From Flavobacteriaceae bacterium D16 (GTDB lineage: Bacteria; Bacteroidota; Bacteroidia; Flavobacteriales; Flavobacteriaceae), in contig JAJTJC010000036.1 in the NCBI GenBank assembly GCA_021295155.1, positions 186,001 to 250,000 of the forward strand: a stretch of 64,000 nucleotides of DNA. Reading direction: 5' to 3'. The notes under the pieces were generated by a model. It ran no database searches. It was given only the letters and a program-made list of their open reading frames with translations, and was not told where the DNA came from. Positions 1 to 13,900 of the stretch are shown here, piece after piece (position 1 is the first letter of the stretch; each line of letters opens with the position of its first letter). The position numbers were made by a program, and so were the translations under genes.

Positions 1-1098
1 AAATTTATTTGGAAGTACCGGCATAACCGATACGAAATTATTCGAACCATAAGTGTGATGTTCTTCCAGACGGCATTTGCCTTTATCATTCCGGAAATTA
101 TGGCCAGGCTAAATGGTTCCATTCCCTATTACGACCTGAAGAATATATGGCCACTTAATTACTATAATTTTGAACGCTATCGGATAAATGGGTTTATCAG
201 TTCTGGTGATATTGGTCTGGCCTTGCTCATTTTCGGAATACTGTCGGTTTTTGTTATTTCTCCTATTCTGACTTATCGCTATGGAAAGCGTTGGTACTGT
301 TCCTGGGTTTGCGGATGCGGGGGCCTGGCTGAAACTGCAGGGGATGCCTTCAGGCAGCTCAGTGACAAAACCATTAAGGCCTGGAAGATCGAACGCTGGG
401 TAGTTCACAGTATTGTCGTTTTTGTTACCCTGATGACCACAGCGGTGATTTACTCCTATTTGGGGAATGATACCAGTAAATACTGGCTTACCAAAAGCAG
501 CTTTTTAATAGGGGTTACACTCCTGCTCACCCTGGTATTTGGGTGGGCGATGCTTTTTAAACGAAAACAACTTCAAAAGGATGCACAATACGGAGCTATA
601 GGTTATTTTATAATAATCATTGCTCTTATTGGCTTGCATCAGTTTAGTGGTGAAGGGAATATTTTCCTTTTTAAATCTGAGACGCTCCGGAAATCATACG
701 GGTTTCTGATTGGCAGCATCTTTTCCGGCGTAATCGGAACGGGTTTCTATCCCATCTTTGGGAATCGGGTATGGTGCAGGTTCGGATGTCCTATGGCCGC
801 TATCCTTGGTTTTCAACAAAAATTGTTTTCCCGTTTCCGCATAACTACCAACGGAGGGCAATGTATTTCCTGCGGAAACTGTTCCACTTATTGTGAAATG
901 GGTATCGATGTGAGGGCTTATGCCCAAAAAGGGGAAAACATTGTTAGATCAAGCTGCGTGGGGTGCGGAATCTGCTCTGCCGTTTGTCCCAGGGGCGTAC
1001 TTAAACTGGAAAACGGACCCCTTGAAGGCCGCATTGAAGCCAATCAGGTGTTGTTGGGTAATGATGTAGACCTTATGGATCTTGTCAATAGCAAATAG
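1..1098 (+). CDS. 4Fe-4S ferredoxin-type membrane protein (NapH/YccM-like), 5' end cut by window
   Basis: The reading frame is open from base 1, so the gene begins upstream; 365 residues are visible. Several hydrophobic segments alternate with cysteine motifs. A CxxxCxC cluster (WYCSWVCGCGG, about bases 295-330) is of the kind seen in NapH/CcoG-type membrane Fe-S proteins. Two classical 4Fe-4S motifs lie near the C-terminus: CISCGNCSTYC (from base 862) and CVGCGICSAVC (from base 955), each followed by a further Cys or a CP. The family passes electrons across or along the membrane, but the partner is not visible here. The next gene follows after 79 bp with its own candidate promoter, so a shared operon is uncertain. 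Exact substrate unknown. Confidence 0.8.
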   Translation, partial: KFIWKYRHNRYEIIRTISVMFFQTAFAFIIPEIMARLNGSIPYYDLKNIWPLNYYNFERYRINGFISSGDIGLALLIFGILSVFVISPILTYRYGKRWYCSWVCGCGGLAETAGDAFRQLSDKTIKAWKIERWVVHSIVVFVTLMTTAVIYSYLGNDTSKYWLTKSSFLIGVTLLLTLVFGWAMLFKRKQLQKDAQYGAIGYFIIIIALIGLHQFSGEGNIFLFKSETLRKSYGFLIGSIFSGVIGTGFYPIFGNRVWCRFGCPMAAILGFQQKLFSRFRITTNGGQCISCGNCSTYCEMGIDVRAYAQKGENIVRSSCVGCGICSAVCPRGVLKLENGPLEGRIEANQVLLGNDVDLMDLVNSK

Positions 1099-3442: not shown

Positions 3443-4804
3443 TTGCTGAAATCACTGCATAAATATTGGAATCTGCATAGGCTTCCTATACTGATCATCC
3501 TTGCTTCAGTTATCTTCTATTTTGTATTTGCGTATCAACTGGAACGGCAGGATTTTCCAAAACTTCTGGGACTATATCTGGCACTGTTCTTTTTTTGTTA
3601 CAAACTAATCCAATTTGAAAAATGGAATTTCAGGCTTCTTCTCTTTGCCGGACTGCTATTTCGATTGGTTTTTCTTTGGGCAGAACCCAATCTATCTCAG
3701 GACTTTTACCGCTTTCTGTGGGACGGGCACCTTTGGCTTGAGGGCGGAAACCCATACCTCTACACCCCTGATGAACTGATGGTCACGGGAGCAAGCCAGA
3801 TCCCAAATGCCTCAATACTACATGAAGGAATGGGTGAGCTAAGCGCGAGGCACTATAGCAATTACCCGCCCTTAAACCAGTTATTTTTTACCCTGGCCGC
3901 CATATGGGGAGGCAAGAGTATTATGGGAACCGTAATAGCATCAAGACTGATGCTTATTTTTGCTGACGTTGGTGTTTTCTACTTTGGGAAGAAGCTATTA
4001 CTAATCCTTAACCGTTCGCCGCATCTGATATTCTGGTATTTTCTCAATCCCTTGGTAATAATCGAACTTACAGGCAACCTACATTATGAAGGTCTGATGC
4101 TGTTATTCTTTATCTGGGCTATCTATTTGCTTGCCATCAACCAATGGATATTCGCCGCCCTGCTATTTGGGGCTTCCATCTCTATAAAATTGATTCCTTT
4201 ACTCTTCCTGCCCTTATTCTTTAAAAATCTTGGATGGATTAAAAGTCTTGCTTTTTATCTGTTGGTTTTCCTGGCAGTAGCAATTACCCTCATCCCTTTC
4301 TATACCCCAGAATTTTTCTCAAACTACACCGCTACCCTACAACTCTGGTTTTCAAATTTCGAATTCAATGCCAGTATATTTAACCTCACTAAAGCAATAA
4401 GTGCACAATTTGAGGTAAGGTCATGGGAGCTTATCAAGGTTTATGGTAAAATAACCCCCTTAATCACATTAGCAGTGTTACTTCTACTAAGCTTCTTAAG
4501 GAAAAAAAGAACGCTTTCCGTATTGCTCGAGAATATGCTCCTGGTTATATGCCTCTATTATTTTATGTCCTCCGCAGTACATCCCTGGTATGTTATTTTT
4601 CCCTTGTTTTTGGCACTATTCACGGATTATCGCTTCTCCATCCTTTGGTCTGCACTCGTAATTTTGAGCTACTCCGCCTATATGCAACCGCAGATCAGTG
4701 AATCCATGTTACTGCTGTCAATTGAATATCTTTTAGTATTTGGATTCCTGGGGTATGAATTTTTCAGATACAGGTCGCATAAACCCTTAATTCATAAAAA
4801 TTAA
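3443..4804 (+). CDS. Integral-membrane mannosyltransferase-like protein (GT-C fold)
   Basis: A 453-residue polytopic protein with roughly ten hydrophobic segments. An acidic, aromatic first loop (PNLSQDFYRFLWDGHLWLEG) contains the Asp and DG pattern typical of GT-C enzymes that use polyprenyl-phosphate sugars (GT87/PIG-M-like). Its conserved NYPPLNQLFF motif follows the second loop. The start is TTG at 3443: an in-frame stop at 3434 leaves no room for an earlier ATG, and the next ATG would remove the first membrane segments. It follows the GT2 pair by 89 bp. Together the three genes suggest a pathway that makes a lipid-linked sugar and adds it outside the membrane; the acceptor is unknown. 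Confidence 0.7.
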   Translation: MLKSLHKYWNLHRLPILIILASVIFYFVFAYQLERQDFPKLLGLYLALFFFCYKLIQFEKWNFRLLLFAGLLFRLVFLWAEPNLSQDFYRFLWDGHLWLEGGNPYLYTPDELMVTGASQIPNASILHEGMGELSARHYSNYPPLNQLFFTLAAIWGGKSIMGTVIASRLMLIFADVGVFYFGKKLLLILNRSPHLIFWYFLNPLVIIELTGNLHYEGLMLLFFIWAIYLLAINQWIFAALLFGASISIKLIPLLFLPLFFKNLGWIKSLAFYLLVFLAVAITLIPFYTPEFFSNYTATLQLWFSNFEFNASIFNLTKAISAQFEVRSWELIKVYGKITPLITLAVLLLLSFLRKKRTLSVLLENMLLVICLYYFMSSAVHPWYVIFPLFLALFTDYRFSILWSALVILSYSAYMQPQISESMLLLSIEYLLVFGFLGYEFFRYRSHKPLIHKN

Positions 4805-4813
4805 GAGGGCTTC

Positions 4814-4843
4814 TTTGTCAGTTCAACATATTTTGTACATTTG
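4814..4843 (+). promoter_or_regulatory. Promoter of the arginine leader and operon
   Basis: TTTG at 4814-4817, an 18-bp spacer, then TACATTTG at 4836-4843, a full match to the Bacteroidota TTTG/TAnnTTTG consensus. The predicted transcription start falls at about 4848-4851, on or just before the ATG of the leader ORF. The leader may therefore be translated from a leaderless or nearly leaderless mRNA. Confidence 0.6.
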
Positions 4844-4850
4844 GTGAAGC

Positions 4851-4931
4851 ATGAAAAACAATGCCAACATATCGGTTTTCCTATACGGCGTCTTTCGTCC
4901 GTTCTTTTCGCCTCGCAGCCGTCGCCCGTAA
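4851..4931 (+). CDS. Putative arginine leader peptide (26 aa)
   Basis: A short ORF, ATG at 4851 and TAA at 4929, ending in FFSPRSRRP. It contains four Arg codons (4896, 4914, 4920, 4923), three of them in the last five residues. It sits alone between a consensus promoter and the first arginine-operon gene, 87 bp before its ATG. That placement is what is expected of a leader peptide whose translation reports charged tRNA-Arg. No strong intrinsic terminator is visible downstream: there is a weak GGAAAT/ATTTCC hairpin (4950-4971) and a T5 run at about 4988. If it regulates, the mechanism may involve ribosome stalling, Rho or translational coupling. Too short for homology to be judged by eye. Confidence 0.55.
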   Translation: MKNNANISVFLYGVFRPFFSPRSRRP

Positions 4932-5018
4932 GGGTGTAATTATGTTATGGGAAATAGGTGAGTCCATTTCCGCAAAATCTTCCGATCCTTTTTAGTTTTA
5001 AGTTCAAATCGAAAAGCA

Positions 5019-5636
5019 ATGAAAATTGTAATTGCTAACGAATCTCATATAAAGTACGCTCAGATCATAAGCGATACCATTACGGAATCTGCAAAAGTTA
5101 GGGGTACCGGGATTGCCCGGCGTACACCGGAATATATCATCAAACGATTACAGCAGGGCAACGCGGTAATTGCGCTGGATGATGGCAATTTTGCCGGATT
5201 TTGCTATATCGAAGTGTGGGGCCATAAGAAGTTTGTGGCCAACAGTGGACTTATAGTCCATCCGGATTATCGCAAACAGGGCCTGGCCAAAAAGATCAAG
5301 AAAGCCATCTTTGAGCTTTCTAGAAAAAAATTCCCGGGGGCAAAGATTTTTGGGATTACTACCGGTCTGGCCGTAATGAAAATGAACTATGAACTCGGTT
5401 ACAAACCGGTGACATTCTCTGAGCTTACGGATGATCCCCAATTCTGGAAAGGTTGTCAGACCTGCAAGAATTTTGACGTCCTTACACGTACGGATCACAA
5501 GATGTGCCTCTGCACAGGGATGCTTTTCGATCCGAATGACAAAACCAAGATCAAAAAATCCAAACGGACGGGAAAATCGATACAATCCTTGAAAAAAATC
5601 AAGACCAACCTGTTCTCAAAAAAAGACGAAAAATGA
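5019..5636 (+). CDS. GNAT acyltransferase, candidate N-acyl-glutamate synthase of the arginine operon
   Basis: A 205-residue GNAT protein. The acyl-CoA site is seen in LIVHPDYRKQGLAKKIKKA (residues 78-96; Q/R-x-x-G-x-A pattern). The C-terminal part has Cys146, Cys149, Cys163 and Cys165 (CxxC...CxC), a possible Zn site, then a Lys-rich tail. It is the first gene of the arginine operon and overlaps argG by 4 bp (ATGA). No argA or argJ is present, so the step from glutamate to N-acyl-glutamate is otherwise unfilled. From memory, genetic work in Bacteroides has assigned a GNAT at the arginine locus to this role. Succinyl- rather than acetyl-glutamate is suggested by the argF' residue described below. 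The exact reaction is inference. Confidence 0.7.
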   Translation: MKIVIANESHIKYAQIISDTITESAKVRGTGIARRTPEYIIKRLQQGNAVIALDDGNFAGFCYIEVWGHKKFVANSGLIVHPDYRKQGLAKKIKKAIFELSRKKFPGAKIFGITTGLAVMKMNYELGYKPVTFSELTDDPQFWKGCQTCKNFDVLTRTDHKMCLCTGMLFDPNDKTKIKKSKRTGKSIQSLKKIKTNLFSKKDEK

Positions 5637-6823
5637 AAAAATTGGTATTAGCCTATAGTGGCGGATTAGATACTTCGTACTGTGCCCTCCACCTTTCCAA
5701 AGAAGAAGGATACGAGGTGCACGCCGTTACTGTAAATACTGGGGGATTTACTGAGGAGGAGGTATCTGATATAAAACAGAAAGCGCTAAACTTAGGCGTA
5801 AAGACTTATAAGTCCATTGATGCCGTTGACACTTTCTATGATAAAGTAGTTAAATACCTGGTTTATGGAAATGTCTTGAGGAATAACACCTATCCTCTTT
5901 CGGTAAGTGCAGAGCGCATCGTTCAGGCCATGGAGATCGTCTATCATGCAAAAGCCATAGGGGCCAGCAGTATTGCCCATGGAAGTACGGGTGCTGGTAA
6001 TGATCAGGTGCGTTTCGATATGATCTTTCAAATACTGGCACCTGAAATAGAGATTATCACGCCTATTCGCGACAAACAACTCTCACGGCAAGAAGAAATT
6101 AGCTACCTGCAGGAACAGGGTATTGACTATTCCTGGGAAAAGGCAAAGTACTCGATAAACAAAGGGCTTTGGGGCACCTCCGTGGGTGGGGATGAAACAC
6201 TTAGTTCTAACCGGGCATTACCCGATGAGGCTTTTCCTAGCCCTCTGAAAGCACAAGATCCTCAAAAAATAAGCTTAAGCTTTAAAAAAGGTGAGCTATC
6301 TGCAATGAACGGTAAATCGGGAAGCCCGGTTGAAATAATTGAAAAACTTAATGAACTGGCATCCCAATATGCCATTGGCCGCGATATTCATGTAGGCGAT
6401 ACGATCATTGGTATTAAAGGCCGAGTGGGGTTTGAAGCCGCCGCACCCTTAATCATAATTAAAGCACATCACCTTTTGGAAAAACACACCCTGAGTAAAT
6501 GGCAACAATACCAGAAAGAACAATTGGGTAATTTCTACGGCATGTTATTGCATGAAGGAAACTACCTGGATGAAGTGATGCGTAATATTGAAGTATTTCT
6601 TGAGGATACCCAGAAAAATGTCAGCGGTGACGTCTTCATTAGCCTGCATCCTTACCGATTTACACTTGAAGGGATCTCTTCAGAACACGATCTGATGAAC
6701 GCCTCCTTTGGGAGTTACGGAGAATGGAATGAAGGATGGACGGCTAACGATGCAAAAGGATTTATAAAAATCCTTTCCAATCCCGGTAAAATTACAAACC
6801 ATGTAAATCAGAATAATGATTAG
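5633..6823 (+). CDS. argG: Argininosuccinate synthase
   Basis: At 396 residues it has the family length. The N-terminus LVLAYSGGLDTSYCAL holds the ATP pyrophosphatase P-loop (SGGLDTS). AHGSTGAGNDQVRFD and the central EIITPIRDKQLSRQEE are the usual citrulline- and aspartate-binding regions. It joins citrulline and aspartate, using ATP, to give argininosuccinate in the cytoplasm. It overlaps the GNAT gene by 4 bp and argC by 8 bp, so translation is probably coupled. Confidence 0.95.
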   Translation: MKKLVLAYSGGLDTSYCALHLSKEEGYEVHAVTVNTGGFTEEEVSDIKQKALNLGVKTYKSIDAVDTFYDKVVKYLVYGNVLRNNTYPLSVSAERIVQAMEIVYHAKAIGASSIAHGSTGAGNDQVRFDMIFQILAPEIEIITPIRDKQLSRQEEISYLQEQGIDYSWEKAKYSINKGLWGTSVGGDETLSSNRALPDEAFPSPLKAQDPQKISLSFKKGELSAMNGKSGSPVEIIEKLNELASQYAIGRDIHVGDTIIGIKGRVGFEAAAPLIIIKAHHLLEKHTLSKWQQYQKEQLGNFYGMLLHEGNYLDEVMRNIEVFLEDTQKNVSGDVFISLHPYRFTLEGISSEHDLMNASFGSYGEWNEGWTANDAKGFIKILSNPGKITNHVNQNND

Positions 6824-7790
6824 GGTAGGAGTTATAGGAGGATCCGGATACACGGGTGGAGAGCTTCTCCGTTTGCTTGTTAATCATACTGAAGTACAGC
6901 TCTGTTTTGTTTTTAGTAGAACACGGGCTGGAAAGCCTGTTTCCACTGCTCATCCAGACCTTCTGGGATTAACAGACCTCTCATTTAGCGGAGAGATACA
7001 GCCCGATGTAGACTTGGTATTCCTTTGCCTGGGGCATGGAAACAGCAGAAAATTTATATTAGAACACCCATTTAGTTCGCACACAAAAATTATTGACCTG
7101 AGCAGAGATTTCAGACTCATTGAAGACCGTTCTCTTAATGGGAAATCTTTCGTCTATGGACTTCCGGAATTGAACAAAAAGCAAATTCAGCAGGCCAGTT
7201 ACATTGCGAATCCCGGTTGCTTTGCTACAGCTATTCAGTTAGCACTGCTGCCCCTGGCCAGTAAGGGACTGCTGTCTGGTGATGTGCATGTAAATGCAAC
7301 AACAGGCAGCACCGGAGCCGGGGTAATCCCATCAGAAACCACACATTTCAGCTGGAGAAACAACAACATTTCCTGGTATAAACCATTTAAGCATCAACAT
7401 TTGGATGAAATCAACCAAAGCCTGGATATGGAACAGACAAATCGCGGGCCTTTGCTATTCCTTCCTATTCGGGGAAACTTCAGCCGGGGTATTTTTGCCA
7501 CGGCTTATACGCGGTATTCGGGTGATCAGGAATCCATTCTTGATCATTTTAAAGCTTACTACCAAGAAGCTCCCTTTACACAAATCAGTGAAAGTCCTGT
7601 ATTTCTGAAACAGGTAGTCAATACCAACCAATGCCATTTACACATTCACCTGGGAGAAGGCGTATTATTGGTCACCTCTGTGATTGATAATTTATTGAAA
7701 GGAGCTTCCGGACAGGCCGTGCAAAATATGAACCTCATGTTTGGTTTTCCGGAATCAGAAGGCCTTGACCTGAAAGCAGGCGTATTCTAA
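6816..7790 (+). CDS. argC: N-acyl-gamma-glutamyl-phosphate reductase
   Basis: A 324-residue NADPH-dependent reductase. The N-terminal Rossmann motif is VGVIGGSGYTGGELLR, and the catalytic Cys135 lies in NPGCFATAIQ. The GSTGAG segment and KPFKHQHLDEI follow in the expected order. It reduces N-acyl-glutamyl phosphate to the semialdehyde. In an organism with succinylated intermediates the substrate would be N-succinyl-glutamyl phosphate. It overlaps the end of argG, and proC follows after 40 bp. Confidence 0.93.
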   Translation: MIRVGVIGGSGYTGGELLRLLVNHTEVQLCFVFSRTRAGKPVSTAHPDLLGLTDLSFSGEIQPDVDLVFLCLGHGNSRKFILEHPFSSHTKIIDLSRDFRLIEDRSLNGKSFVYGLPELNKKQIQQASYIANPGCFATAIQLALLPLASKGLLSGDVHVNATTGSTGAGVIPSETTHFSWRNNNISWYKPFKHQHLDEINQSLDMEQTNRGPLLFLPIRGNFSRGIFATAYTRYSGDQESILDHFKAYYQEAPFTQISESPVFLKQVVNTNQCHLHIHLGEGVLLVTSVIDNLLKGASGQAVQNMNLMFGFPESEGLDLKAGVF

Positions 7791-7830
7791 CAATTGCCCC
7801 ATCTTAATAACCTAACATAAAACAAGCGAC

Positions 7831-8628
7831 ATGAAAATAGCAATAATCGGAACCGGAAATCTGGGTAAATCCATAGCCAAAGGGATCCTGCACAGCAACG
7901 GGGCCACTCAAATGTATCTCACCAAAAGACACCCTGAAAGTATCCGAGATTTTGAAAAATACGGCAATGTCAAAGTCACTGCAGACAACAGGGAGGCAGT
8001 AAACAATTCAGATATCCTGATCTTCGCAGTGCAGCCAGGTCACTTCAGTGATATACTCGAGGAAACAAAGGATCTACTTACAGATAAGCATGTTATTATC
8101 TCTACCATTACAGGATTCAGTATAAGCAAGATTGAAAGCCTTATTGGAAAAGAGCATTTTATTATACGGAGTATGCCTAATACAGCGATTTCGGTCGGCA
8201 AGTCCATGACCTGCCTTTGCGGTAATGAAGCTGGTCAAAAACGAATAGAACTGGCGAAAGCCATTTTTAACCGGATGGGGCATTCCCTTGAGATTCCGGA
8301 AGAACAAATGCAGGCTGCCACTGTAATCTGTGCCAGCGGCATTGCCTTCTGGATGCGCCTGATACGGGCTACAACCCAGGGTGCTATACAACTCGGGTTT
8401 GATGCCCGGGAAGCTTCGGAGCTGGCTATGCATACCTGTGATGGGGCCGCTGGACTATTGATAGCCTCTGGCAACCATCCGGAACAGGAAATAGATAAGG
8501 TTACCACTCCCATGGGGTGTACCATTCAGGGGCTGAATGAGATGGAGCATCAAGGCCTATCTTCTTCCCTGATCAGGGGTATTGTGGCTTCATTTGAAAA
8601 GATCAATGAGTTCAAGACCAATTCATAG
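7831..8628 (+). CDS. proC: Pyrroline-5-carboxylate reductase
   Basis: A 265-residue enzyme starting MKIAIIGTGNLGKSIAKG (NAD(P) Rossmann motif). SMPNTAISVGKSMT and the C-terminal signature around SPG-type residues, here TTPMGCTIQGLNEME, are characteristic of ProC. It reduces pyrroline-5-carboxylate to proline. Its place between argC and argD inside the arginine operon is notable because proA and proB are absent here, so P5C must come from enzymes encoded elsewhere. Gap to argD is 20 bp. Confidence 0.92.
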   Translation: MKIAIIGTGNLGKSIAKGILHSNGATQMYLTKRHPESIRDFEKYGNVKVTADNREAVNNSDILIFAVQPGHFSDILEETKDLLTDKHVIISTITGFSISKIESLIGKEHFIIRSMPNTAISVGKSMTCLCGNEAGQKRIELAKAIFNRMGHSLEIPEEQMQAATVICASGIAFWMRLIRATTQGAIQLGFDAREASELAMHTCDGAAGLLIASGNHPEQEIDKVTTPMGCTIQGLNEMEHQGLSSSLIRGIVASFEKINEFKTNS

Positions 8629-8648
8629 TATACAAACGGCTTAGGAAA

Positions 8649-9776
8649 ATGAAAATATTTGATGTTTATCCGCTTTACAAAGTTACTCCGGTATCAGCCA
8701 GGGGTATCACTATTACGGATGATCAGGGAATAGAATATCTTGATTTTTACGGGGGTCATGCCGTTATATCCATTGGTCACTCGCATCCTACCTATGTAAA
8801 ACGGTTAAAGTCGCAATTAGACAAGATGGGCTTTTACAGTAATTCTGTAGCTAATCCGTTGCAGGCAAGCCTGGCTGCAAAACTCACCAAAATGGCCCAG
8901 TGTGAACAATATCAGTTATTCTTGTGCAATTCGGGGGCTGAAGCGAACGAGAATGCTTTAAAATTAGCTTCTTTCCATACAGGTAAATCCCGGGTAATTG
9001 CCTTTCATAACAGCTTTCATGGGAGAACATCCGCAGCTGTTGCCGTCACGGATAATCCTAAGATCAATGCACCTCTGAACAGCCAACATCAGGTTACTTT
9101 TCTGGATTTTGATGATCAGGAATCCCTGAAAACCGAATTATCCAAAGGCGATGTGTGCGCGGTGATCCTGGAAGCCATTCAAGGCGTTGGCGGACTGGAC
9201 CAGCCTTCACCCTCATTCTATCATTTCCTGGCTGATTGTTGTAAGAAATACAATGTAATGTTGATAGCTGATGAGGTACAATCGGGATTCGGGCGCAGTG
9301 GAAAATTCTTTGCATTCCAGCACTACAAGGTAGAGCCCGATATTATTAGCATGGCTAAAGGGATGGGAAATGGGTTTCCAGTAGGTGGGATTCTCATCCA
9401 TGAAAAGATCAAGGCCTCTTTCGGTATCCTGGGAACCACATTTGGAGGCAATCACCTGGCATGTACTGCTGTACTGGCGGTACTGGAAGTCATGGAATCC
9501 GAAAACCTGATTGCTAATGCTGCTGCTTTGGAAAGCTATTTCAGGGAAGAAGCCGCCAGGATATCCCAGGTTAAGCGGGTAAAAGGACGTGGTCTAATGC
9601 TGGGCCTTGAGTTTGATTTTAAAGTGGCCAGCTTACGGGAAAAACTGATCTATGATTACCATATATTTACAGGTGGTGCAAAGGATAAATTTGTGTTGCG
9701 GATTCTACCCTCACTGGGCGTAACCCAGGATGAACTCTATAAGTTTTTTGTCGCTCTTAAAGCCGCTCTTTCATGA
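8649..9776 (+). CDS. argD: N-acyl-ornithine aminotransferase
   Basis: A 375-residue class III PLP aminotransferase. NSGAEANENALKLA (about residues 94-107) binds the cofactor phosphate, ADEVQSGFGRSG carries Asp208, and MAKGMGNG carries the Schiff-base Lys237. It converts N-acyl-glutamate semialdehyde to N-acyl-ornithine with glutamate as amino donor. Slightly shorter than E. coli ArgD (about 406), as is usual in Bacteroidota. It overlaps the next gene by 4 bp (ATGA). Confidence 0.93.
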   Translation: MKIFDVYPLYKVTPVSARGITITDDQGIEYLDFYGGHAVISIGHSHPTYVKRLKSQLDKMGFYSNSVANPLQASLAAKLTKMAQCEQYQLFLCNSGAEANENALKLASFHTGKSRVIAFHNSFHGRTSAAVAVTDNPKINAPLNSQHQVTFLDFDDQESLKTELSKGDVCAVILEAIQGVGGLDQPSPSFYHFLADCCKKYNVMLIADEVQSGFGRSGKFFAFQHYKVEPDIISMAKGMGNGFPVGGILIHEKIKASFGILGTTFGGNHLACTAVLAVLEVMESENLIANAAALESYFREEAARISQVKRVKGRGLMLGLEFDFKVASLREKLIYDYHIFTGGAKDKFVLRILPSLGVTQDELYKFFVALKAALS

Positions 9777-10708
9777 AACATTTTACCTCTGTTTTGGATA
9801 TCCCCTCCCTGGAGGATTGGCTTAGCGAAGCAAAGGCTTTAAAGCAGCATCCTCGAAAGCATGTGCATTTGGGTGAAGGTAAAACGCTTGGGCTTTTGTT
9901 CTTCAATAATAGCCTGAGGACTCGTCTCAGTACCCAGAAAGCTGCATTGAACCTGGGGATGGATGTAATGGTGATGAATTTTGGAAAAGATGGCTGGGCA
10001 TTGGAATTTGCTGATGGTACGGTTATGAATGGAAATAATGCCGAGCACGTTAGAGAAGCGGCCCGCGTAGTTTCTCAGTATTGCGATATTTTGGGGATCA
10101 GGGCTTTTGCCCAACTTCAAGACAGGGAATTTGATGAATCGGAACCGGTACTAAATGGATTCCTGGATCATGTTAGCATCCCAATTGTCAATCTGGAAAG
10201 TGCTCTGGAACACCCCCTGCAATCTCTGGCTGATGCACTGACGCTCGAGGAACATCGCACTAAAGCAAGACCCAAAGTTGTGCTTAGCTGGACACCACAT
10301 CCCAAACCCCTGCCGCATGCTGTAGCGAATTCCTTCATCAAAATCATGCAGCGCATGCCGGTAGACCTCTCTATTGTGCATCCTGAGGGTTATGACTTAA
10401 ATAAAGATATCGTTGGACCTACACCCGTATTATTCAACCAGGAAGAAGCACTGGAAGGAGCAGATTTTGTTTATGCCAAAAGCTGGAGCAGCTATCAGCA
10501 CTATGGTCAGGTACTCACTGAGGATCCTGAATGGATGGTTAGCCTGGAAAAACTTAAGGGTGCAAAATTTATGCATTGCCTTCCTGTAAGACGAAATGTG
10601 GTGGTGGCAGATACGGTACTGGAAAGCAAACAATCACTGGTTATAGAACAGGCCAATAATCGAACCTATGCAGCCCAATTGGTTCTGAAGAAACTATTGG
10701 AACAATAA
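9773..10708 (+). CDS. argF': N-succinylornithine carbamoyltransferase
   Basis: A 311-residue transcarbamylase. The carbamoyl-phosphate motif is SLRTRLS (residues 47-53) rather than the STRTR of ordinary ornithine transcarbamylase. The 75-92 segment around WALEF and NNAEH is typical of the acetyl/succinyl-ornithine subfamily, as are HPLQSLADALT and HCLPVRRNVVV. Trp75 and Ala90 align by number with Trp75 and Pro90 of the Bacteroides fragilis succinyl enzyme. The acetyl-specific Xanthomonas enzyme has Glu92 at that place, and published mutants of that Glu to Ala, Ser, Pro or Val gain succinyl specificity. Ala90 therefore predicts N-succinylornithine as substrate, giving N-succinylcitrulline. The motif is seen; specificity is inferred. 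Confidence 0.9.
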   Translation: MKHFTSVLDIPSLEDWLSEAKALKQHPRKHVHLGEGKTLGLLFFNNSLRTRLSTQKAALNLGMDVMVMNFGKDGWALEFADGTVMNGNNAEHVREAARVVSQYCDILGIRAFAQLQDREFDESEPVLNGFLDHVSIPIVNLESALEHPLQSLADALTLEEHRTKARPKVVLSWTPHPKPLPHAVANSFIKIMQRMPVDLSIVHPEGYDLNKDIVGPTPVLFNQEEALEGADFVYAKSWSSYQHYGQVLTEDPEWMVSLEKLKGAKFMHCLPVRRNVVVADTVLESKQSLVIEQANNRTYAAQLVLKKLLEQ

Positions 10709-10714
10709 TATATC

Positions 10715-11494
10715 ATGACCCCAGAGCTGAGCATTGTTAAAATTGGCGGTAACGTTATTGAGAACCCAGGAGAATTACATCAGTTCCTTGAGCTTTTCAG
10801 TGCCCTGAAAACTCCTAAAGTGCTGGTTCATGGTGGTGGTAAAAAAGCAACAGAAGTTGGTCAAAAACTAGGATTCACTTCTAAAATAGTTGCCGGCAGG
10901 CGTATCACTGATCCTGACAGCCTGGACGTGGCCCTTATGGTATATGCAGGTCTGGTCAACAAAAAAATAGTAGGTAGCTTGCAGGCCATGAACTGTAACG
11001 CCCTGGGTTTAAGCGGTGCTGATGCTAATCTCATTCAGGCTTATAAAAGACCCATAACCAACATTGATTTTGGTCTGGTAGGAGACATTGAAGTAGTAAA
11101 CGCTAAAGCTCTGAACAACTTTCTGGACATGGGTACGGTTCCCGTTTTTTGCGCCATAACACACGACCAAAAAGGGCAAATGCTCAACACCAATGCAGAC
11201 ACGATAGCTTCTGAATTAGCAATTGCGCTGAGTACAAAATTTAAGGTGACGCTGTATTATTGTTTCGAAAAACAGGGTGTCCTATATGATAAGGATGATG
11301 ATAAATCTGTGATCCCGAATATCGATTGGCCTTTATATCAGGAACTAATATCAAAAAATGTTATATCAGATGGGATGCTACCCAAAATGGAAAACAGCTT
11401 CAGGGCTTTAAAATCGAAAGTAAAGCGCGTCTGTATTGGTAATACAAAAATGCTGCAATCGGCACCTGGACTGTATACAACCCTTACCTTATGA
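10715..11494 (+). CDS. argB: N-acyl-glutamate kinase
   Basis: A 259-residue amino-acid kinase. The N-terminus IVKIGGNVIENP and the VLVHGGGKKATEVGQKLG loop bind ATP and substrate, GRRITDPDSLDVALMV follows, and SDGMLPKMENSFRAL is the usual C-terminal motif. It phosphorylates N-acyl-glutamate (N-succinyl-glutamate if the argF' prediction holds). Only 6 bp separate it from argF' and it overlaps argE by 4 bp. It lacks the long N-terminal helix of arginine-inhibited hexameric kinases. Feedback control may therefore act elsewhere, for example through the leader upstream of the operon. Confidence 0.92.
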   Translation: MTPELSIVKIGGNVIENPGELHQFLELFSALKTPKVLVHGGGKKATEVGQKLGFTSKIVAGRRITDPDSLDVALMVYAGLVNKKIVGSLQAMNCNALGLSGADANLIQAYKRPITNIDFGLVGDIEVVNAKALNNFLDMGTVPVFCAITHDQKGQMLNTNADTIASELAIALSTKFKVTLYYCFEKQGVLYDKDDDKSVIPNIDWPLYQELISKNVISDGMLPKMENSFRALKSKVKRVCIGNTKMLQSAPGLYTTLTL

Positions 11495-12576
11495 AAAGTG
11501 AAATTCAAATACTGACGGATAAAGCCCTTGAATTACTCAAGGAACTTATTTCCACCCCCTCCTTTTCAACTGAGGAAGAAAGGACCGCTGAAATCATTGT
11601 GCTATGGCTAAATGAATTTGGTATACCAGTGAAGAAATGGCACAACAATGTATATGCCTTCAATAAATACTTCGACCCTTCAAAACCGACGCTTTTACTT
11701 AATTCGCACCATGACACGGTAAAGCCTAACAAGGCCTATACCCGAGATCCTTTTCACCCACATATTGAAGATGGCAAACTCTACGGGTTGGGAAGCAATG
11801 ATGCTGGTGGAAGCCTGGTATCGCTCCTGGCAGCCTTTGTTCATTTTTACAATTGGGAACACCTCAGTCACAACCTGATTGTGGCGGCTACTGCAGAAGA
11901 AGAGATAGCAGGTTCTAAGAGCCTGCGGGGTTTGCTTGCCCATTTACCAGAGATTGAGGTGGCCATAGTTGGGGAACCTACCTTAATGCAGTTGGCTGTA
12001 GCCGAAAAAGGACTGATCGTTTTTGATGCTGAAATCCGGGGAACACCTTCGCATGCAGCGCATCCAAATAACAATAACGCCATCTACAACAGTGTTGAAG
12101 TTCTGGAATGGTTTAAGAACTACAGGTTTGAAAGGGTTTCCGATGTGCTCGGAGAAGTAAAGCTCACTGTAACACAAATCAGTGGAGGCTCACAGCATAA
12201 CGTGGTTCCTGCCAAAATAGATCTGGTAATCGATACCCGGGTTAATGATTGTTATTCCAATGAAGAAATTGCTGAAATCCTGGCAAGAGAAGCACCTTGC
12301 GACATCAAGCCGCGTTCACTACGCCTCAATTCCTCTTCGATTAGCCAAGACCACATGCTGGTGCAGTCCGGGATAGCATTGGGAAGAGAGACCTATGGCT
12401 CACCAACATTATCAGACCAGGCAGCCCTGGATTGCCAGTCGCTGAAACTTGGGCCAGGCGATAGTACACGTTCTCATTCTGCAGATGAATTCATCTATGT
12501 TCGTGAAGTTGAGGAAGGCATTCAACTCTATATTCAATTATTGAAAAAGTTTCTGGCAAAAGAAAAAACATCATAA
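11491..12576 (+). CDS. argE: N-acyl-citrulline/ornithine deacylase, M20 family
   Basis: A 361-residue M20 zinc hydrolase. Metal and catalytic motifs appear in order: SHHDTVKP (His and Asp), GSNDAGGSLVSL (Asp ligand), TAEEEIAG (Glu base and ligand) and the dimerisation-domain segment GTPSHAAHP. In Bacteroidota the transcarbamylase works on acylated ornithine. This enzyme should therefore release the acyl group from N-acyl-citrulline rather than from ornithine. It follows argB with a 4-bp overlap, and argH starts 37 bp downstream. Confidence 0.88.
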   Translation: MKSEIQILTDKALELLKELISTPSFSTEEERTAEIIVLWLNEFGIPVKKWHNNVYAFNKYFDPSKPTLLLNSHHDTVKPNKAYTRDPFHPHIEDGKLYGLGSNDAGGSLVSLLAAFVHFYNWEHLSHNLIVAATAEEEIAGSKSLRGLLAHLPEIEVAIVGEPTLMQLAVAEKGLIVFDAEIRGTPSHAAHPNNNNAIYNSVEVLEWFKNYRFERVSDVLGEVKLTVTQISGGSQHNVVPAKIDLVIDTRVNDCYSNEEIAEILAREAPCDIKPRSLRLNSSSISQDHMLVQSGIALGRETYGSPTLSDQAALDCQSLKLGPGDSTRSHSADEFIYVREVEEGIQLYIQLLKKFLAKEKTS

Positions 12577-12613
12577 TTCGGGTCATACCGATATCACAAC
12601 AAAATACCACAAT

Positions 12614-13900
12614 ATGAAACTATGGGATAAGGGGCAAAGCACAGATAAAAAAATTGAGGCATTCACGGTTGGAAAAGACCGGGAACTAGACCTGATCCTG
12701 GCTAAGTACGATGTGCAAGCATCTATGGCTCATGCACAAATGCTGGCAAAGGTAGGACTCGTTTCTGCCGAAGAAGGAGATGCTCTCCTAAAAGAACTCC
12801 GAGCAATAGCAAAATCAATTGACGAGAGTAAGTTTACCATAGAAAAGGATTTTGAGGACATGCACTCTAAAATAGAATATCTCCTTACGGAAAAACTTGG
12901 GGATACTGGTAAAAAAATACATACCGCTCGCTCCCGAAATGATCAGATCCTGGTAGCCATGCAACTTTATCTGAAGGATGAAATAGAGTCCCTGGAGAAG
13001 GCAGTATCCGACTTATTTAAACTATTGATTCAACTGGCAGAGACCCATCAATCAGTTCTGCTGCCCGGTTATACGCATTTACAAATTGCAATGCCTTCAT
13101 CTTTCGGTTTATGGTTTTCCAGCTATGCCGAAAGCCTGATTGACGATGTCTATCTGCTAAAAGCAGCACAAAAGGTAACAGACCAAAACCCTATGGGAAG
13201 TGCAGCTGGTTACGGGAGTTCATTTGACATTGACAGGTCATATACCACGGACTTAATGAATTTTAAAACCATGAAGTATAATGTTATTGCTGCTCAAATG
13301 GGACGGGGCAAGGTAGAAAAGACCCTGTCTTTTGCAATAGCAAGTCTGGCTGGTACGCTGAGTAAGCTCGCTATGGATTGTTGTCTTTATATGAGCCAAA
13401 ACTTTAGTTTTATTTCATTTCCCGATCAATTAACCACAGGAAGCAGTATCATGCCTCATAAAAAGAATCCAGACGTATTTGAACTGGTACGGGCCAATTG
13501 TAACGTATTACAGTCCCTTCCTAATACCCTGCTGCTGCTTACCAGCAACTTGCCCAGCGGATACCACCGCGATTTGCAATTATTAAAAGAAAACATGCTG
13601 CCTGCACTGGAGACCCTGAAAAGTTGCCTGGAAATCACAACTTTCAGTATGGAACAAATTGAAGTTAAAAAGGATATACTGGAAGACCCCAAATACGATT
13701 ATCTCTTTAGTGTAGAAAACCTCAACGAACTCGTTAAACAAGGATTACCCTTCAGAGATGCTTACAGGAAACTGGGAGAAGAAATAGGTAGTGGAACGTA
13801 CCAGCCCAACAAGAAAGTGGACCATACTCATGAAGGTAGTATAGGGAACTTGTGCCTGGAGCAGATTGCCCAAAAAATGGATCGGGCACTTGAAGGATAA
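12614..13900 (+). CDS. argH: Argininosuccinate lyase
   Basis: A 428-residue fumarase/aspartase-superfamily enzyme. HTARSRNDQ (first conserved region), PGYTHLQIAMP and the signature GSSIMPHKKNPD are clear. It splits argininosuccinate to arginine and fumarate, the last step of the operon. It is a little shorter than the E. coli enzyme (457). No strong terminator follows in the 67 bp before the BLUF gene, so read-through is possible. Confidence 0.94.
   Translation: MKLWDKGQSTDKKIEAFTVGKDRELDLILAKYDVQASMAHAQMLAKVGLVSAEEGDALLKELRAIAKSIDESKFTIEKDFEDMHSKIEYLLTEKLGDTGKKIHTARSRNDQILVAMQLYLKDEIESLEKAVSDLFKLLIQLAETHQSVLLPGYTHLQIAMPSSFGLWFSSYAESLIDDVYLLKAAQKVTDQNPMGSAAGYGSSFDIDRSYTTDLMNFKTMKYNVIAAQMGRGKVEKTLSFAIASLAGTLSKLAMDCCLYMSQNFSFISFPDQLTTGSSIMPHKKNPDVFELVRANCNVLQSLPNTLLLLTSNLPSGYHRDLQLLKENMLPALETLKSCLEITTFSMEQIEVKKDILEDPKYDYLFSVENLNELVKQGLPFRDAYRKLGEEIGSGTYQPNKKVDHTHEGSIGNLCLEQIAQKMDRALEG

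Follow-up and report, generated by a model that had tools for sequence, protein, structure and literature searches.

A conserved Arg-rich leader with two RNA hairpins before the arginine operon of Flavobacteriaceae, a candidate arginine sensor

How is the arginine operon controlled in the Flavobacteriaceae? In the bacteria studied best, it is mostly the ArgR repressor that governs arginine biosynthesis. In this family of mostly marine bacteria, ArgR (PF01316) turned up in just one of 199 genomes, as a borderline match; it was not found in the genome of Flavobacteriaceae bacterium D16, and a Bacteroides control was positive. We analysed a window of the D16 genome (the whole stretch of 64 kb, positions counted from its first letter) in which a short Arg-rich ORF stands before the arginine genes (Table 1). 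The element to which this ORF belongs is a candidate answer to the question, given the near absence of ArgR.

The sole NCBIfam match of the first gene of the operon, which encodes a GNAT-family protein, falls far below the curated cut-off; judged by its position, the enzyme possibly catalyses the acetylating first step of arginine synthesis. The argD-like and argE-like matches also fall under their cut-offs. The operon includes proC (pyrroline-5-carboxylate reductase, 7831-8628), which links proline synthesis to arginine control.

Table 1. Features of the arginine operon and its leader in the D16 window
Feature	Positions	Strand	Description
Promoter	4814..4843	+	-33 element TTTG 4814-4817; 18-nt gap; -7 box TACATTTG 4836-4843; predicted TSS 4848
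Leader ORF	4851..4931	+	MKNNANISVFLYGVFRPFFSPRSRRP; ATG 4851, 26 codons, TAA 4929-4931; 194 leaders located in relatives
Hairpin H0, within leader ORF	4885..4902	+	ACGGCG-TCTTT-CG-T-CCGT; one bulged T; seen in MFE folds of 4848-5021 and 4881-4906
Hairpin H1	4923..4936	+	CGCCC-GTAA-GGGTG; leader stop in loop, last Arg codon in 5' arm
H1-H2 spacer	4937..4949	+	U-rich, G-poor in relatives
Hairpin H2	4950..4971	+	GGAAAT-A-GG-TGAGT-CC-ATTTCC; bulged A, two G-C pairs, UGNGU pentaloop
GNAT-family acetyltransferase, first operon gene	5019..5636	+	Pfam PF00583
argG, argC, proC, argD-like, N-acetylornithine carbamoyltransferase, argB, argE-like, argH	5633..13900	+	NCBIfam

The leader ORF and its promoter

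The comparison covers 199 Flavobacteriaceae genomes, about one per genus, searched with the GNAT protein as query. The first gene was present in 130 of them, and all 130 upstream regions were read. We added 80 named relatives, the nearest being Lentiprolixibacter aurantiacus (L031, 92% in GNAT). Counts of leaders refer to the 194 of 209 upstream regions in which the search pattern found both H1 and H2, that is, 116 of the 130 genus-level loci and 78 of the 80 named ones (two were lost to contig ends); the two sets overlap, since L002 and L031 are the same place.

A short ORF rich in Arg, with a conserved block at its end, is present at nearly all GNAT loci. All 194 located leaders have at least two Arg among their last 12 residues, 174 end in Pro followed by the stop, and 160 end in RRP-stop. 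The remainder of the peptide varies among relatives, and a few leaders have no ATG. In D16 the four Arg codons begin at 4896, 4914, 4920 and 4923, and 87 nt separate the leader stop from the first gene at 5019. The original prediction of a 26-codon leader with clustered Arg codons before the arginine operon is thus correct in its coordinates and, now that relatives have been aligned, borne out by conservation.

Fourteen loci have much shorter leaders of 8-10 residues, such as MRRIFPRRP (L123, L129, L135, L136, L138, L139, L140, L143, L151, L152, L159, L160, L163 and L189). No -7 box was found within 14 nt of the ATG in these loci, and in those for which H0 is listed (L129, L140, L159) the ATG lies downstream of it.

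The sequence of the proposed promoter, TTTG-N18-TACATTTG, is as first given, and its -7 box lies 7 nt from the leader ATG. In a TSS map of F. psychrophilum, the sigma-A TAnnTTTG box occupies -12 to -5 (PMC9723704). Placed by this rule, the D16 start site is predicted 3 nt before the ATG. The -7 box followed by an ATG is present in all 78 usable named relatives, with a spacing of 6-8 nt in 74 and a mode among relatives of 7 nt, so that a promoter directly at the ATG, as first proposed for D16, holds across the clade around this genome. In the genus-level set, a -7 box and an ATG in reach of it occur together in just 40 of 116 leaders. The suggestion of a leaderless mRNA survives in part: the start site is indeed predicted next to the ATG, but a 3-nt 5' UTR would make the mRNA nearly, not strictly, leaderless, and the arrangement is confined to those 40 leaders at the genus level.

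Two features point to selection on the reading frame and on the Arg codons. The first ATG after the -7 box, taken in any frame, opens an ORF in frame with the Arg-rich end in 77 of the 78 named relatives, which are close kin and not independent cases, and in 35 of the 40 genus-level loci having a box. The distance from ATG to H1 in the 77 in-frame named relatives is 60, 69, 72, 75 or 78 nt. Of the 94 leader Arg codons outside H1 in the 29 nearest loci, 90 are CGT or CGC; the corresponding counts are 323 of 361 across all 116 loci and, for the named relatives, 229 of 233. The background is 242 of 792 Arg codons in ORFs of at least 180 codons, a figure that may include some false ORFs and that describes the 30 nearest loci. 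From this selection on frame and codon choice we infer that the leader is translated, and the preference for CGT and CGC suggests a dependence on one tRNA-Arg acceptor, that for CGY codons.

RNA hairpins and their conservation

Three hairpins, absent from the original prediction, accompany the leader: H0 inside the ORF, and H1 and H2 at and after its end. The sequence of H0 varies among relatives. A hairpin upstream of H1 scoring at least 14 was found in 46% of 116 relatives, against 10% of shuffles and 15% of an upstream control region, in a search that does not count D16's own bulged H0.

The end of the ORF overlaps H1 in most loci. Of 116 loci, 97 have a leader stop that overlaps the loop, 3 have it in the 3' arm and 16 have it after H1 (e.g., RRPLGV-stop). 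Loop and stop codon vary, and CCC/GGG is mostly kept; the outer pair is unpaired in 36 of 105 sequences. In two loci (L026, L117) H1 is the variant CGCAC paired with GUGCG, and the pairs are retained while Pro is lost from the peptide (RRTSVRV-stop, RRTFVRA-stop). In the spacer that follows, T outnumbers A in 110 of 116 loci, and 19-22 nt separate the end of H1 from the core of H2 in 99 of 116.

H2 has both-sided changes at seven of its eight pairs among 105 sequences, around an invariant loop. RNAalifold, unprompted, returned the whole of H2 and two pairs of H1 from the alignment of these sequences (A1), and from a longer region in 87 loci it returned five H1 and eight H2 pairs, with probabilities of 0.64 to 1.0. 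The named structure pairs 91.7% of cells, against 85.4% in shuffles, and contains 81 both-sided changes, against 24; none of 500 shuffles reached either value. Further pair types were no more frequent than in shuffles (19 vs 17.9; 148 of 500 reach that count), and structures slid along the alignment show less pairing than the named one. As judged from the alignment, the covariation evidence rests on H2. Variants of H2, GAUGNGUU, occur in L118, L128, L170 and L188. A pseudoknot between the 5' arm of H1 and AGGUG of H2 was considered by eye and rejected, as variants of the two fail to change together. The idea of H2 as a general module was likewise abandoned: the other eight AGGTGNGTCC sites in the D16 genome lack the H2 stem, and the stems that flank them have at most four pairs.

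The minimum free energy fold of 4848-5021 contains H0, H1 and H2, plus an enclosing helix and, close to the gene start, a further hairpin. Across relatives, the sequence between H2 and the gene shows less structure than shuffles do (z -5.0), which counts against control by hiding of the gene start.

To follow the element through the family, we used a covariance model, R1, trained on the 105 genus-level loci of A1. These are 105 of the 115 places found by pattern; eight were dropped for length, and one false place on L185 and the place on L153, at first taken for false, were also left out. R1 matches 124 of the 130 loci before the GNAT gene at E<=0.001, and 19 of the 25 loci outside the training set, eight of which had been excluded for length alone. 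The D16 site, whose own locus is in the training set, scores 68.9 bits (E 2e-20 within the 64-kb window). This score and the recurrence across the family put the leader element well beyond chance. In L153 the element lies unusually far upstream of the gene (220-296, minus strand) and is matched by R1 despite its initial rejection.

At E<=0.1, R1 matches 138 of the 199 family genomes, and strong matches occur once per genome among the matches listed; weak second matches, where examined, mostly proved false. In a phylum sample of 395 genomes, every match better than E 1e-10 belongs to the Flavobacteriaceae; outside the family there were matches in 26 genomes, all with E of at least 4.8e-4. Nine of 13 such loci were inspected, by the starts of their ORFs only, and no arginine gene was found at them, nor at L230, a weak match inside the family. 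Of six weaker family matches one is real, L246 before argG, and four further weak ones are not at arg genes.

The element is kept before argG in L241, L242 and L246, where a different protein replaces the GNAT homologue. By Pfam, the replacement has a GNAT fold in L242, is just below the cut-off in L246 and has no match in L241. Since the element stays despite replacement of the first gene, it is tied to the arginine operon and not to the GNAT gene. The operon can do without it: in G127 (genus g127) the first gene lacks the element, and R1 has no match in at least 20 g127 genomes.

Rfam gave no match at the gathering score in the 64-kb window; a search of 4780-5080 returned three matches with E of 1.1-1.9, all far below their gathering scores. 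The early suggestion of a possibly undescribed type agrees with this result, as the architecture matches no family in the Rfam library searched.

A candidate arginine sensor and its alternatives

Is the element an attenuator of the classical, ribosome-mediated kind? It has clustered cognate codons and stands directly before a biosynthetic operon; an intrinsic terminator and antiterminator pairing were not found. On the plus strand of D16, between promoter and gene, the terminator scanner flags just the hairpin 4923-4936, with the poor tail TAATTATGTT, so the view that there is no strong intrinsic terminator here stands. Elsewhere in 4600-5300 the scanner makes two calls, one on the minus strand and one inside the first gene.

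The histidine leaders served as control: 15 were found among 21 genomes searched, 11 from the same family and four from the same order. A strict terminator test was passed by one of 116 arg leaders and by all 15 his leaders; under the loosest test, any hairpin in the leader, the counts were 21 of 116 and 15 of 15. Strong termination at H1 alone is therefore unlikely. The sole arg leader to pass the strict test is that of L126 (about 107-180, minus strand), where the hairpin is H1 with a tail. D16 has its own his leader (L256, about 1210-1321 of contig C22), VKRNNTHHHFYTCTQAR, which has a GTG start and lies before hisG. With three consecutive His codons and a long terminator hairpin followed by a T run, it is a textbook attenuator. 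Upstream of ilvD, in 10 loci (one of them cut off), there was no obvious Ile/Leu/Val leader.

Helix tests gave a similar picture. In the 15 his loci, the antiterminator formed by the leader end and the 5' arm of the terminator was recovered with z 6.0. In the 116 arg loci no excess was found for leader-H1, leader-H2, H1-H2 or spacer-H2 helices. Long-range antiterminator helices were thus rejected, bar two signals. Helices that join H1 to the stretch before the gene are weakly in excess (z 3.3, 116 loci); the commonest of them occurs in 6 of 87 loci, a set that leaves out the nearest clade and with it D16. Spacer-H2 helices, perhaps a longer H2 stem, are in excess (z 3.6) only among the 29 nearest loci.

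We consider it probable that the element is a cis-acting arginine sensor of the argG operon, which would act through ribosome stalling that controls H1. The comparisons across genomes support the frame, the codon choice, the conservation of H1 and H2, the link to the operon and the absence of a classical terminator and antiterminator; for the response to arginine and its direction, for what comes after H1 and for any part played by H2, we infer the following. A ribosome would load at the nearly leaderless start and translate toward the CGT/CGC Arg cluster that enters the 5' arm of H1. With little charged tRNA-Arg for CGY codons, it would stall on or just before this arm and block H1. When arginine is plentiful, it would reach the stop in the H1 loop and depart, and H1 could form. 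Formation of H1 would then lower expression, most likely because RNA polymerase stops or pauses for long in the U-rich stretch before H2. We take H1 as the repressive state because an ample supply of arginine should turn arginine genes off. H1 and the U-rich, G-poor sequence after it look like a weak terminator or a hairpin for pausing, and since H1 is a poor intrinsic terminator a factor would perhaps assist; NusA or NusG are possible helpers. H2 would be a separate conserved element, most likely a contact site for a protein or for the polymerase.

Some observations sit less well with ribosome stalling at H1. The core of H1 hardly varies, both-sided changes coming from just two sequences, which counts against it, and the weak helix signal that links H1 to the pre-gene stretch is left unexplained. 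H2 is the least explained part, conserved beyond what stalling needs. As a compact, well-defined RNA target, it may serve in finding a new RNA-binding factor. Tentatively, and with rather less confidence than in the sensor itself, we suggest a family-specific attenuator class without intrinsic terminator or antiterminator, in which the stalled ribosome blocks a weak hairpin and the invariant bulged H2 decides the fate of the polymerase; H2 would here, just as tentatively, recruit a dedicated factor or sense arginine directly.

The same conservation raises an alternative, in which H2, or H1 together with H2, is the sensor, binding a protein or arginine directly, and the ORF merely tunes it. It would account for the part with the most invariant loop and the best covariation, which a model of stalling alone does not need and whose stem is lacking at the other AGGTGNGTCC sites of the genome. 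We regard it as unlikely, as it leaves the clustered CGY codons and the conservation of frame unexplained, and no known RNA family in Rfam matches.

Rho-dependent attenuation, which along with translational control was among the mechanisms first suggested, is somewhat less probable still. Rho would act on the untranslated, unstructured stretch after the leader stop, and stalled ribosomes or the two hairpins would modulate it. The lack of a strict intrinsic terminator in 115 of 116 loci and the low structure between H2 and the gene fit this explanation, but the distance from H2 to the gene, 47 nt in D16, is mostly about 45-55 nt in relatives (longer in some). By what is known of E. coli, Rho would have little room to load on such lengths.

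We are more doubtful of an arrest of the ribosome by the nascent peptide, through its Arg-Arg-Pro-stop end and perhaps with free arginine as co-effector. The frequency of this end is what one would look for, but H1 as RNA forces RRP once the frame is fixed, and the rest of the peptide is variable. Moreover, stalling by the peptide end itself, as had been envisaged, gains no support from the genera in which Pro is replaced (the two CGCAC loci) or the stop is moved beyond H1 (the 16 loci), H1 being retained in both. That the ORF is there by chance beside a conserved non-coding RNA is hardly credible, for H1 alone would force its RRP end, but not its frame, its start-codon geometry or its codon choice outside H1.

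If ribosome stalling at H1 does control the operon, arginine would become one more amino acid that the leader peptides of biosynthetic operons sense; to our knowledge, no arginine-sensing leader peptide on a biosynthetic operon has been described.

Comparison with known systems

In attenuation of the pyrBI type, the leader ORF overlaps a hairpin that the ribosome blocks directly, and the signal is UTP. The overlap of ORF and hairpin is common to pyrBI and the arg leader, but H1 is a poor terminator and the signal here would be the charging of tRNA-Arg. TnaC, SpeFL and the fungal arginine attenuator peptide stall ribosomes at or near the end of a short ORF, and TnaC ends in Pro-stop. The arg leader differs from them in that its residues are set by the RNA hairpin, and some genera have others in their place.

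Another arginine-linked system is rbfL of Staphylococcus aureus, described in PMC13009471 as an arginine-sensing leader peptide on which ribosomes pause at AGG/AGA, blocking the ribosome binding site of a biofilm regulator. The arg leader, in contrast, uses CGT/CGC, and its gene start is 87 nt away.

For F. psychrophilum, PMC9723704 speaks of 'strong clues' that amino acid operons are preceded by leader peptide attenuation, and describes a conserved 5' element at hisG; its section on structured 5' leaders names pheA, hisG and others, the arginine operon not among them. The main text of PMC8632094 contains no occurrence of Flavobacteri-, Bacteroid- or argG. In the parts of the open-licence literature searched, no description of the arg leader element was found.

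The closest parallel is with attenuators of the his/trp type, of which the D16 his leader is an example: like the arg leader, they have a short ORF rich in the cognate codon before the first gene and an RNA structure that overlaps the end of the ORF. The two part at the next step, where the his leaders have a strong terminator and a detectable antiterminator, whereas the arg leader passes the strict terminator test in a single locus, shows no such antiterminator and has, in addition, the hairpin H2. With both kinds of leader in one genome, the his leader of D16 offers a clean comparison for learning how attenuation may work without an intrinsic terminator in bacteria that start translation without Shine-Dalgarno pairing.
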